A stretch of 50,178 nt of DNA from Patescibacteria group bacterium (GTDB taxonomy: Bacteria > Patescibacteriota > Doudnabacteria > UBA920). A program made the position numbers and the translations under genes. Location: positions 1 through 50,178 of the forward strand of contig JAMDAY010000007.1 in assembly GCA_023484515.1 (NCBI GenBank), in the 5' to 3' direction. Shown here one piece after another: positions 17,047 through 20,195 of the stretch; position 1 is the first letter of the stretch, and every line of letters starts with the position of its first letter. The notes under the pieces were generated by a model. It saw only the letters and a list, made by a program, of their open reading frames with translations. It did no database searches and was not told the DNA's origin.

Positions 17047-18552
17047 TTACTCTGTCTTCGGGCGATAATGTATAGCCTCCGCCAAATTGTCGCAATTAAT
17101 GGTTTCCAAACCGGCCAAATCCGCAATGGTGCGGGCTACTTTTAAGATGCGGTGCAGGCTGCGGCCGGAAAAATTATAGCGCTGCATGGCGGTCTTAACC
17201 ACCTGCTGCTCCGGCTCGCCTAAACGGCAATGCTCTTTTAACTCCACCAAGTCCATTTCGCTGTTGGTTTTTACCTTTTTAAATCTTGCTCGCTGGCGCG
17301 ACCGGGCAAGCTGCACCCGTCCTTTTACGGAAAGCGAAGTTTCCGCCGGAGCCGGGGCCGTCATTTTCTCGTAGGCCAAACGCGGCACTTCCACGTGCAA
17401 ATCTATGCGATCCAGAAGCGGGCCTGATACTTTTTTCTGGTATTTGAAAATCTGCCCCGGGCTGCACTGGCAGCGCTTAACCTGGTCGCCCAAATACCCG
17501 CAAGGGCAGGGGTTCTGCGCCGCCACCAGGGTAAACTTGGCTGGAAACGTAAAGCTGCCGCTGGCGCGCGAGACCGTAACTACCCCGTCTTCCAGCGGCT
17601 GGCGCAAAGCCTCCAAAACATTGCGGGGAAATTCGGGGAATTCGTCCAAAAATAAAATTCCGCGGTGCGATAAAGTAATCTCCCCGGGCTTGGGATTATT
17701 ACCCCCTCCCACCAAAGCCACGTTAGATGTCGTATGGTGCGGGTTGCGGATAGGCCTGCTGGTAATCAAAGATCCCGGCAGCTTGCCAGAAATGCTGTAA
17801 ATTTTTGTCAGCTCCAGTGCCTCCTCCAGGGATAAATCCGGCAAAATACCGGCCATGGCCCTCGCCAACAAAGTCTTGCCGCTGCCCGGCGGCCCGGAAA
17901 GCAGAATATTATGCCCGCCGGCCGCGGCAATCTCCAGCGCGCGCTTGGCCGATTCCTGCCCGGCAATATCTTTCATATCCAGCGGCGGTTGGAAATTGCG
18001 CAAAATCTCCTCCACATTCTGCGGCTTTAGCGGCCTTAACTTTTCCATATCCAGCAAATGCCCAAGCAGGTCTTTTAAACTATTAACAGGGAATACCTTT
18101 AAACCGCCCACCAAAGCCCCTTCTTTGGCGTTTTCTTTCGGCACGTATAATTCTTTTACGCCAAGTTCCCGGGCTTTCATGGCCGCAGCCAAAATTCCCG
18201 GCACGCTGCGCAATTGCCCGTCCAAGGACAACTCTCCCAAAAACAATTTGCCCTTAGGCTCAAAACTTGCCTGCTCCGAAGCCAGTAAAATTGCCAGGGC
18301 AATGGGCAAGTCGAACAGCGTTCCCAGTTTGGGCACGTCTGCGGGAGCTAAATTCACGGACACGCGAGTTTGCGGATAAAAACATCCGGAATTTTTTATG
18401 GCGGTCTTTACCCGCTCCCGGCTTTCCTGCACCGCCGTATCCGGAAGACCCACCACAATAGTTGCGGGCAAGCCGTTGGTAACGTCCGCTTCCACCTCCA
18501 CCGGCGCGGCGTCCAGCCCGATTACGGTTGCCGAAAGCACTTTGGAAATCAT
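17047..18552 (-). CDS. comM: YifB/ComM-type Mg-chelatase-like AAA+ ATPase
   Basis: A 501-residue protein of the ComM family, hexameric helicases that promote branch migration during natural transformation. The N-terminal Lon-substrate-like domain starts MISKVLSATVIGLDAAPVEV and contains VNLAPADVPKLGT. The AAA+ core has Walker A SGPPGSGKTLLARAM (about 219) and Walker B GILFLDEFPEF, then a Cys cluster (NPCPCGYLGD) and the C-terminal Mg_chelatase_C region ending NLAEAIHYRPK. Its start overlaps the lspA stop by 4 bp (ATGA), so translation is coupled. Together with recA at 23910 and the pilin array, uptake and recombination of DNA is a plausible context. That link is inference. Confidence 0.94.
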   Translation of the reverse strand: MISKVLSATVIGLDAAPVEVEADVTNGLPATIVVGLPDTAVQESRERVKTAIKNSGCFYPQTRVSVNLAPADVPKLGTLFDLPIALAILLASEQASFEPKGKLFLGELSLDGQLRSVPGILAAAMKARELGVKELYVPKENAKEGALVGGLKVFPVNSLKDLLGHLLDMEKLRPLKPQNVEEILRNFQPPLDMKDIAGQESAKRALEIAAAGGHNILLSGPPGSGKTLLARAMAGILPDLSLEEALELTKIYSISGKLPGSLITSRPIRNPHHTTSNVALVGGGNNPKPGEITLSHRGILFLDEFPEFPRNVLEALRQPLEDGVVTVSRASGSFTFPAKFTLVAAQNPCPCGYLGDQVKRCQCSPGQIFKYQKKVSGPLLDRIDLHVEVPRLAYEKMTAPAPAETSLSVKGRVQLARSRQRARFKKVKTNSEMDLVELKEHCRLGEPEQQVVKTAMQRYNFSGRSLHRILKVARTIADLAGLETINCDNLAEAIHYRPKTE

Positions 18553-19046
18553 GCGCGTTTTGGCTTATTTATCTGATACCATAATAATACCACAATGCCT
18601 AAGATTATATAAAAATCGGCCAGGTTGAATATTCCGCTGAAAAGGTAGATAAAATCCCTGACATGGCCGCTAAGGATTCTTTCCGCAATGTTGGAAACGG
18701 CTCCGGCAAAGATCAAAGTCCACGCTGCCGCTTCCGGCCGGGAAAAAAAATCCATTTTTTTCTTTACATATGCTCCCATGAAAAACAAAATTATGGCGTA
18801 CAATAAGTACATCAGCCAGGGCGGCAACGGCAGGCTGAATGCGAATTGGGAATTAAAAAACAAATATTTCCTTATGGCCGGCGGCCAAACATTTAAAAAA
18901 TTTCCAAAGCCTGAACTGAACGCAAAATGCTTGACCAGCTGGTCAATTAAGACCAACGCTGCGCCGAAAGCTAAATAAAAAACGAAAGCACCCCTTCCGG
19001 CAGTTCTCTCGCTTTTCATCTTAGAATTATTGTCAGCTTTCTCCAT
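18549..19046 (-). CDS. lspA: Lipoprotein signal peptidase (signal peptidase II)
   Basis: A 165-residue membrane aspartyl protease that removes signal peptides from prolipoproteins. Four hydrophobic helices are visible (about 21-38, 70-92, 105-123, 135-157). Conserved boxes are present: LIDQLVKH (D-Q-x-x-K), NSQFAFS, then AGAVSNIAERILSGHVRDFI and FNLADFYI, whose two aspartates are the catalytic pair. The usual N-x-x-D-R before the first catalytic Asp is replaced by NIAER. The start may be at 19046 or at an in-frame ATG nine codons later; no ribosome binding site decides. It overlaps comM by 4 bp. Confidence 0.92.
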   Translation of the reverse strand: MEKADNNSKMKSERTAGRGAFVFYLAFGAALVLIDQLVKHFAFSSGFGNFLNVWPPAIRKYLFFNSQFAFSLPLPPWLMYLLYAIILFFMGAYVKKKMDFFSRPEAAAWTLIFAGAVSNIAERILSGHVRDFIYLFSGIFNLADFYIILGIVVLLWYQINKPKRA

Positions 19047-19102: not shown

Positions 19103-19408
19103 TTATATGGCCTTATCCGCCCACGGGATGGCGCGCAACCGCTCTTCGGAAATTTCCTTGCCGGAGCCGTCAACTCCATAAGTGCCATCTTCTATTCTTT
19201 GCAAAGCCTTGTTGATTTTTTCCAAATCGCCGCTCATCCTGGCGATTAAGTCCTGGTTAACTTCGTCCACCTGGATCTCTTCGGCATTCCCGTCCACGTC
19301 GTCGCCCAATTCCGTATGAGGGTGCAGATCAGCCAAGTCGCGTTCCAGCCTGGCTTTATTTTCCAACAATTCCTTTTTCATTTCTTGGATAAATTCTTGT
19401 GAAAGCAT
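19103..19408 (-). CDS. TraR/DksA-like protein lacking zinc-finger cysteines
   Basis: Start ATG 19408 (101 residues). The longer ORF to 19438 begins inside the promoter's TATAAT and is rejected. The protein has a coiled-coil-like helix pair (MKKELLENKARLERDLADL, then MSGDLEKINKALQRIEDGTYG), as in DksA/TraR proteins that insert into the RNA polymerase secondary channel. The zinc finger is degenerate: the expected CxxC after YG reads VDGSGKEISEERL, and the second CxxC is absent because the protein ends at PWADKAI. Promoter: TTGCAG (19459-19464), 16 bp, TATAAT (19437-19442). It may modulate transcription. The tip residues would decide whether it acts like DksA. Confidence 0.82.
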   Translation of the reverse strand: MLSQEFIQEMKKELLENKARLERDLADLHPHTELGDDVDGNAEEIQVDEVNQDLIARMSGDLEKINKALQRIEDGTYGVDGSGKEISEERLRAIPWADKAI

Positions 19409-19502: not shown

Positions 19503-20030
19503 TAGAAAAAGCGCCTCTTACGGCGCCTCATAGTAGATTACTTAGGCGGTAATGAGGCGCTATAACCCAAACATGCTCGGCGAATCATCGCCGATGATGC
19601 AGGGCTTAAATCTGTTTAAGCCCTAAACCATCGGCAATGGTCCACACTCTGGCAGTTCAGGCCTTCCCGAATAGCTTCGGGAGAAAGCGTCTGAATTCCA
19701 ATCTGATTTCAAACTGCACTTTAAACTTTTCTTATGGTCGCCCGAAGCGACCCCAAACATTTTTATTTTTATTTTGAAAATAAAATTTTTGTTTTTGGTT
19801 ATTTGTTGGGGAACAAACAACTTGCCGCATACCCGAAGGTTTGCAGCCTTCATTTTTGTTTTTGTTTTTCAGACAGCCTAGATTGGATAGGCTATGACGA
19901 AAAGTTTAAAGGAAAACTGCCTTTAATCGTTTTAAATTCAAAACAGGTTCCCTTTGTCCAGTTTTATACAATGTTAGATTGGGTTTTTAAGGTGCTTTTT
20001 GTTTCTAGAAGTTTTCCACATCCATACTGT
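19503..20030 (-). ncRNA. Unassigned structured RNA of about 525 nt
   Basis: No supported ORF lies between 19439 and 20195, yet a consensus promoter (20037-20065) starts a minus-strand transcript that ends at a hairpin and T-run (19504-19530). Many stable local helices are visible in the minus-strand RNA. They include GGTCGC/GCGACC with a TTCGG loop (near 19745), TCCCGAA/TTCGGGA (near 19675), AGGGCTTAAA/TTTAAGCCCT (19600-19625), TCGGCGA/TCGCCGA (19577-19596) and AGCCTA/TAGGCT (19875-19895). The right arm of a 9-bp stem (19552-19560 with 19523-19531) overlaps the left arm of the terminator hairpin, so the two exclude each other. I looked for tmRNA, RNase P RNA and SRP RNA landmarks and did not find them. 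It could be a highly divergent RNase P or tmRNA, or a new class. Confidence 0.55.
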
Positions 20031-20036
20031 ATATTC

Positions 20037-20065
20037 ATCATAGCAAGCTTTTTGCTGTTTGTCAA
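20037..20065 (-). promoter_or_regulatory. Consensus sigma-70-type promoter for the 525-nt RNA
   Basis: Minus strand: perfect TTGACA (20060-20065), 17-bp spacer, TATGAT (20037-20042). It is the best -35/-10 pair seen in this window. Confidence 0.8.
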
Positions 20066-20195
20066 TCCTTAGCGGTATTTTTTTTATTTTCCCCAATGTT
20101 TCCAGGGATTTTATCATATCTTAACCTTATAAATGCAAAAAAATACCCGTTGGATAACCTGTGGATAAAGCAAAATTTCAGTAATAAATAAAACT

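Follow-up and report, generated by a model that had tools for sequence, protein, structure and literature searches.

The window, i.e. the whole stretch of 50,178 nucleotides that was analysed, carries on its reverse strand a gene for a structured RNA, which is followed downstream by a gene of the DksA/TraR family and by lspA (Table 1). The transcript comprises ~525 nt, with its 5' end near position 20030 and its 3' end in a U tract near 19505, and the transcripts of the homologues are ~420-570 nt long. The first-pass annotation, made from the letters of the window alone, had proposed that a perfect promoter (TTGACA-17-TATGAT) and a terminator bracket about 525 nt, and both elements are seen: the promoter, a strong one of the sigma-70 type, scores 11/12, TTGACA and the -10 box are kept in every homologue for which upstream sequence is available (families f1-f5), and the terminator is a hairpin with a U tail. 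If the promoter/terminator scan of the window is taken alone, promoter-like sites do not exceed chance (2 found vs 2.5 expected).

Table 1. Features of the RNA gene and its surroundings; positions refer to the window.
Feature	Position	Strand	Remarks
RNA gene	19503..20030	-	promoter and terminator; homologues in 42/49 genomes of the class; compensated pairs
DnaA box TTATCCACA	20160..20168	-	upstream of promoter; function inferred
Promoter TTGACA-17-TATGAT	20065..20037	-	extended -10 (TG before the -10 box); score 11/12
Second DnaA-like site TTTTCCACA	20012-20020	+	inside transcript; function inferred
boxA GCACCTTAAAA	19985..19995	-	relaxed motif in 28/29 homologues
P1, 5' strand	19960..19965	-	pairs with 19710-19715; 86.5% of cells paired, little varied in f1
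P2 hairpin	19909..19954	-	19937-19954 with 19909-19926; 17 pairs, 7 with compensated double change
P3, 5' strand (long-range helix)	19899..19906	-	pairs with 19724-19731; compensated in f1 and across five families
P4 hairpin	19875..19893	-	110/110 cells paired over 22 loci, several stem sequences
P4 loop UCCAAUC (PK1, 5' strand)	19881-19887	-	pairs with PK1 3' strand
A-rich single-stranded linker AAAAACAAAAACAAAAA	19853..19869	-	near-invariant in f1-f5
P5 hairpin GGUCGC-UUC-GGGCGACC	19736..19752	-	just before P3 3' strand
P3, 3' strand	19724..19731	-	compensated in f1 and across five families
P1, 3' strand	19710..19715	-	part of the named-structure test in f1
PK1, 3' strand GAUUGGA	19697..19703	-	pairs with P4 loop; 152/154 cells paired over five families
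3' domain, P8 and P9	19579..19647	-	P8 19629-19647 with 19579-19596; P9 19616-19623 with 19602-19609; compensated pairs
Terminator hairpin and U tract	19505..19561	-	19554-19561 with 19510-19517; also present in homologues
Terminator GAGGCGCCGTAAGAGGCGC-TTTTT	19529..19505	-	hairpin, then U tail
DksA/TraR-family gene	19103..19408	-	ORF extendable to 19438; conserved start MLSQ at 19408; downstream neighbour, not part of RNA
lspA	18549-19046	-	after the dksA-like gene; invariant neighbour, not part of RNA

The strong hairpins described earlier for this region are borne out by its folding energy: the minimum free energy of 19503-20030 (reverse strand) is -183.8 kcal/mol, as compared with -124.3 +/- 7.0 kcal/mol for shuffled sequences (z = -8.5; none of 100 shuffles equally stable). 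In the sense of the RNA, the longest ORF comprises 76 aa and starts at a conserved AUG after the A-rich linker. In the homologues, the same ATG is directly followed by a stop codon, opens 3-48 unrelated codons or is absent. We rejected this ORF as a protein gene, as its frame is not conserved and often reduces to AUG-stop; a conserved ORF, which would have refuted the structured RNA proposed in the first-pass annotation, was looked for and not found.

According to the comparative analysis, the predicted fold is conserved and consists of a three-way junction of P1, P2 and P3, a pseudoknot formed by the P4 loop, an A-rich linker and a 3' domain composed of P8 and P9. RNAalifold predicts 86 pairs from 15 sequences of family f1, 51 of which show compensated double changes. 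The named structure that we tested in f1, i.e. P1, P2, P3, P4, PK1, P8, P9 and the terminator, has 94.9% of cells paired and compensated double changes in 40 of its 76 pairs; its covariation (0.383 vs 0.172 for shuffles) is reached by none of 500 shuffles and drops sharply when a strand is slid by one column. The alignment of relatives and the search for covariation proposed in the first-pass annotation have thus yielded compensated changes. P1 varies too little in f1 for a proof by covariation, and in f3, inspection by eye suggests the same helix with different letters (CAAACUACAGAC / GUCUAUAGUUUG). At the position of P5 the homologues have a short hairpin of varying sequence (GGUGUUAAAUCACC, GGUCUACGGACC and others). 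The 3' domain has 24 pairs, 21 of them with compensated double change, and P9 tops P8 in many species. A near-identical module, GGUUUAGGGCUUAAA..UUUAAGCCCUGCA (window positions 19602-19623), caps P8 in many f1 and all available f3 RNAs, whereas others lack it entirely, a pattern that resembles the exchange of a complete unit.

In the pseudoknot PK1, the P4 loop forms seven pairs with the segment immediately 3' of P1, and this helix persists in all five families while its letters differ: UCCAAUC/GAUUGGA in f1, UCUAGUC/GACUAGA, UCUAACC/GGUUAGA and UCUAAUC/GAUUAGA in f2, UUAAGUC/GACUUAG in f3, UCCAACC/GGUUGGA in f4, and ACCAGC/GCUGGU in f5. As the search for the partner strands of P3 and PK1 took the most complementary segment in each case, the raw pairing is inflated, which the swap and shuffle controls remedy only in part. 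The pairing score of PK1 with its own strands is 218.5, as compared with 181.7 +/- 5.9 when strands are swapped between species and 141.3 +/- 5.5 when one strand is shuffled, and P3, P4 and PK1 together have 430 of 440 cells paired over the five families, which is above all 2000 strand swaps. Moreover, the position of the PK1 partner is nearly constant (17-23 nt into the searched stretch), except in two divergent sequences; the match in sequence L023 is imperfect. Because of these controls and the nearly constant partner position we regard PK1 as a real helix.

A covariance model of the 5' half of the RNA finds it in 42 of the 49 genomes of the class Candidatus Doudnabacteria, usually with one copy each, and blastn detects it in 36 of 98 relatives, among them almost every relative from the same family. 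The weak matches of the covariance model in f4 and f5 are real, as they carry the promoter, hairpin P4, the linker and the downstream dksA-like gene; a second place in genome G026 (C6, E 5e-4) looks protein-coding and was rejected. A stricter pattern, P4 hairpin plus A-rich linker, was run over 84,980 species genomes and matched 28 stretches, all from Candidatus Doudnabacteria or Patescibacteria/bacterium MAGs and none from outside this group; the same pattern has no match in viral contigs (IMG/VR). With a broader pattern applied to 380 genomes of the phylum, no convincing copy was found in the 345 other Patescibacteria, its nine matches outside the class being no more numerous than those of the reversed-pattern control and lacking the hairpin, i.e. 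chance-like. Judged by these searches, the RNA is specific to the class Doudnabacteria, in line with the earlier guess that the DNA comes from the Candidate Phyla Radiation (CPR). We rejected a viral or mobile origin, given the absence from viral contigs, the usually single copy and the fixed synteny.

The first-pass annotation had wavered between RNase P RNA or tmRNA in disguise and a new large structured RNA. No family of Rfam 15, be it OLE, GOLLD, ROOL, HEARO, raiA or any other, reaches its curated cut-off at the locus (search of the window) or in the homologues from f2-f5, and we attribute weak matches in the region (RAGATH-19 and others, E at least 0.19, far below the cut-offs) to chance; the confident Rfam match that would have refuted the first-pass annotation did not appear. 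Neither the RNase P RNA models (RF00010/RF00011) nor the tmRNA covariance model (RF00023) or ARAGORN match at the locus, and both RNAs have genes elsewhere: RNase P RNA lies at G000:C9:13421-13643 (class A match, E 7e-16, with the AACAGAA..CGGCUUA landmark in the alignment) and tmRNA at G000:C33 (119.9 bits, above the cut-off). The disguise is thus ruled out, and the idea of a new large structured RNA is supported by the class-wide conservation, the compensated changes and the conserved pseudoknot. The RNase P RNA of this genome is itself divergent, with 53 bits far below the Rfam cut-off of 100 and the 5' part lying upstream of the matched place. Models of SRP RNA (small and large) and 6S RNA have no match in the genome, and the SRP helix-8 pattern (GNAR tetraloop, AGCAG side) is absent from this genome and most relatives, the four matches in 48 relatives being chance-like and none at this locus. 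The bacterial small SRP model detects no SRP RNA in any of 60 Patescibacteria, with positive controls, SRP RNA being either very divergent or lost there.

Near its 5' end the RNA contains a boxA. A relaxed boxA motif lies 5 to 83 nt after the -10 box in 28 of 29 homologues (1.2 expected), and 12 of the 29 have the exact consensus GYTCTTTAANA (0.04 expected), which is the boxA consensus of γ-proteobacteria (PMC5725501); the variants found are GYTCTTTAANA, GNACNTTAAAA and GNNCTTTGAAA. In this genome, GCACTTTAACA stands in the rrn leader, 275 nt ahead of 16S, and a boxA motif occurs in 14 of 22 rrn leaders of Doudnabacteria (0.2 expected), with the same variants as in the RNA. In the single-contig relative G038, the exact 12-mer of the RNA boxA occurs only at the RNA and the exact 11-mer of the rrn boxA only in the rrn leader. 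A possible pairing in f1 between part of boxA and UUUAAAGUGC, close to the 3' strands of P1 and P3, leaves room for a structural role of boxA in this family, which does not hold for f2 and f3. In some relatives the 16S rRNA matches span 1.9-3.1 kb (G047:C11:1887-5013, G040:C9:22268-24233, G025:C18:5697-7633), which points to long insertions or introns inside 16S.

CRISPR arrays are among the transcripts with boxA/Nus antitermination, and we know of no earlier case in which a boxA heads a stand-alone structured RNA gene. In other boxA/Nus transcripts, e.g. rRNA leaders and the suhB 5' UTR, the same boxA likewise follows soon after the start of an untranslated RNA (PMC5725501), whereas here it heads a stand-alone gene for a structured RNA of 0.5 kb. 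Non-coding RNAs were, as stated there, not considered in the published survey of boxA targets (PMC5725501).

The neighbourhood of the RNA is fixed: in essentially every genome in which the contig reaches far enough, and in all five families, the RNA is followed downstream by a dksA/traR-like gene and lspA, both read in its own direction. The upstream gene is usually DnaQ/DinG-like and is a different one in f2. The DksA/TraR protein matches DksA-type models of NCBIfam with E values of 3e-9 to 2e-13, which is below the curated cut-offs, and DksA-like chains in the PDB. In nearly all f1 and f3 genomes this protein lacks the zinc-finger cysteines; the orthologues from f2, f4 and f5 keep some of them. 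A TATAAT-like box precedes the start of the dksA-like gene, both in the alignment and in the homologue sequences, and together with the RNA's own terminator in the homologues it makes two transcription units likely.

Around the promoter, DnaA boxes are frequent, reaching 2.4 per kb in the region 50-450 nt 5' of P4 vs 0.13 elsewhere in the loci (19-fold; the comparison is mostly with coding DNA). The boxes were seen in the window and at homologous promoters in L011-L131, and most f1 genomes have perfect TTATCCACA. This density suggests that DnaA may control the RNA. The idea that the RNA marks oriC was rejected, as in G038 it lies ~60 kb from dnaA and the GC-skew minimum; in the window, the GC skew does not change sign. 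On the single 964-kb contig of that relative (G038:C1) the RNA is at 681.9 kb, on the strand reading away from dnaA and the GC-skew minimum, and the rrn operon (745.7 kb) is on the same side. The first-pass annotation had mentioned neither boxA nor the pseudoknot, nor the DnaA boxes or the constant neighbours dksA and lspA.

On balance, we consider it probable that the gene encodes a stand-alone, trans-acting, non-coding pseudoknotted RNA made by a boxA/Nus-modified polymerase, its biochemical role being an inference. That the locus is instead an artefact of reading, i.e. chance hairpins or the remnant of an mRNA or pseudogene, is hardly tenable: promoter-like sites of this kind are indeed expected by chance in AT-rich DNA, but the folding energy, the class-wide conservation and the lack of a conserved ORF speak against it, and the compensated changes have already refuted it. 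It is also very improbable that the RNA is a known housekeeping RNA in strongly diverged form, with SRP RNA and 6S RNA as the foremost candidates. Both remain undetected in this genome, and like them, as well as RNase P RNA and tmRNA, the RNA is present in single copy and class-wide, with a strong promoter and a terminator. However, SRP RNA was detected in none of the 60 Patescibacteria searched, among which are other classes that do not have the present RNA, and its absence is thus not tied to this locus. Moreover, the locus has neither the helix-8 pattern nor other landmarks or model matches of SRP or 6S RNA, its size and its three-way junction with pseudoknot are unlike the rod of SRP or 6S RNA, and RNase P RNA and tmRNA are separate genes.

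The main rival reading takes the RNA for a long leader acting in cis, by which read-through into the dksA-like/lspA operon would be controlled, i.e. an attenuator that possibly responds to Nus factors or a ligand. We regard this as unlikely, but the tight linkage keeps it alive, as the RNA lies directly upstream of these two genes across five families even though the upstream gene differs in f2, and DksA-family proteins and boxA both belong to the control of rRNA transcription. Against it stand the terminator after the RNA in the homologues, the apparent separate promoter of the dksA-like gene and a fold that by far exceeds usual leaders in size. No clear terminator/antiterminator alternative was noticed, albeit without a dedicated test, and the gene order may persist merely because it is rarely changed in this class, where lspA and often comM stay in place, too. 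Finally, instead of forming an RNP machine, the RNA could regulate in trans by sequestering a factor, either NusB/S10 via boxA or the DksA-like protein encoded next to it. The boxA in 28 of 29 homologues and the constant adjacency of the DksA-like gene would fit; yet a sponge would not need a conserved 0.5-kb fold with a pseudoknot, and one boxA per RNA would make a weak one, which renders sequestration quite improbable.

For the stand-alone RNA that we favour, we propose that NusB and S10 would bind boxA, for which there are no partner data, and that the Nus-modified polymerase would then transcribe the untranslated RNA without early (Rho) termination and help it to fold, both as for rRNA. 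The folded RNA may have a trans-acting role, either at the core of a stable RNP or as an RNA-only particle; transcript data that bear on this are lacking. The rRNA-type boxA, the fixed place next to a DksA-like gene and, in many species, DnaA boxes at the promoter suggest a task in ribosome production or growth control and not a mobile element. Thus, the RNA is probably an RNP scaffold or a regulator tied to ribosome production or growth, although this inference is indirect. The more specific idea of a large RNA machine of a new class, which would be produced in the manner of rRNA by boxA/Nus antitermination and would serve ribosome assembly or growth-rate control in Doudnabacteria, remains tentative and is rather doubtful at present.

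In size and elaboration the RNA appears most like the large ornate RNAs OLE, GOLLD and ROOL, an analogy for which no data on oligomerisation exist. GOLLD and ROOL are phage-linked, whereas this RNA has no match in viral contigs. All three are likewise non-coding RNAs of several hundred nucleotides with an elaborate long-range fold and a transcription unit of their own, and their function is likewise unknown or little known (PMC12286853). They occur, however, in other organisms, and the RNA from Doudnabacteria has no Rfam match, is single-copy and chromosomal, and combines fixed synteny with a boxA at its 5' end. It is about twice as long as the raiA motif RNA. The latter, raiA motif RNA/ModT, is likewise structured, stand-alone and widely conserved, with a housekeeping-like distribution and a link to growth control (PMC11706538), but belongs to another clade and has other neighbours, and again no Rfam match connects the two. 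We found no earlier description in the literature, subscription papers and bioRxiv being outside the scope of the search. "Large structured RNA of unknown function" is an already recognised, loose category; what is new, judged by Rfam 15 and the searched literature, is the family, the fold and the arrangement of boxA.

Large structured bacterial RNAs that are conserved throughout a class are very rare; the present one belongs to the CPR. As the reduced genomes of the CPR usually shed non-essential functions, the retention of a 0.5-kb RNA in nearly all genomes of the class argues for an important job. If our reading is true, this would be a boxA-headed gene for a structured RNA that is not rRNA, which raises the testable question whether Nus factors may help the transcription and folding of structured RNAs beyond rRNA, and the RNA itself points to an unknown RNA machine or regulator in Doudnabacteria.
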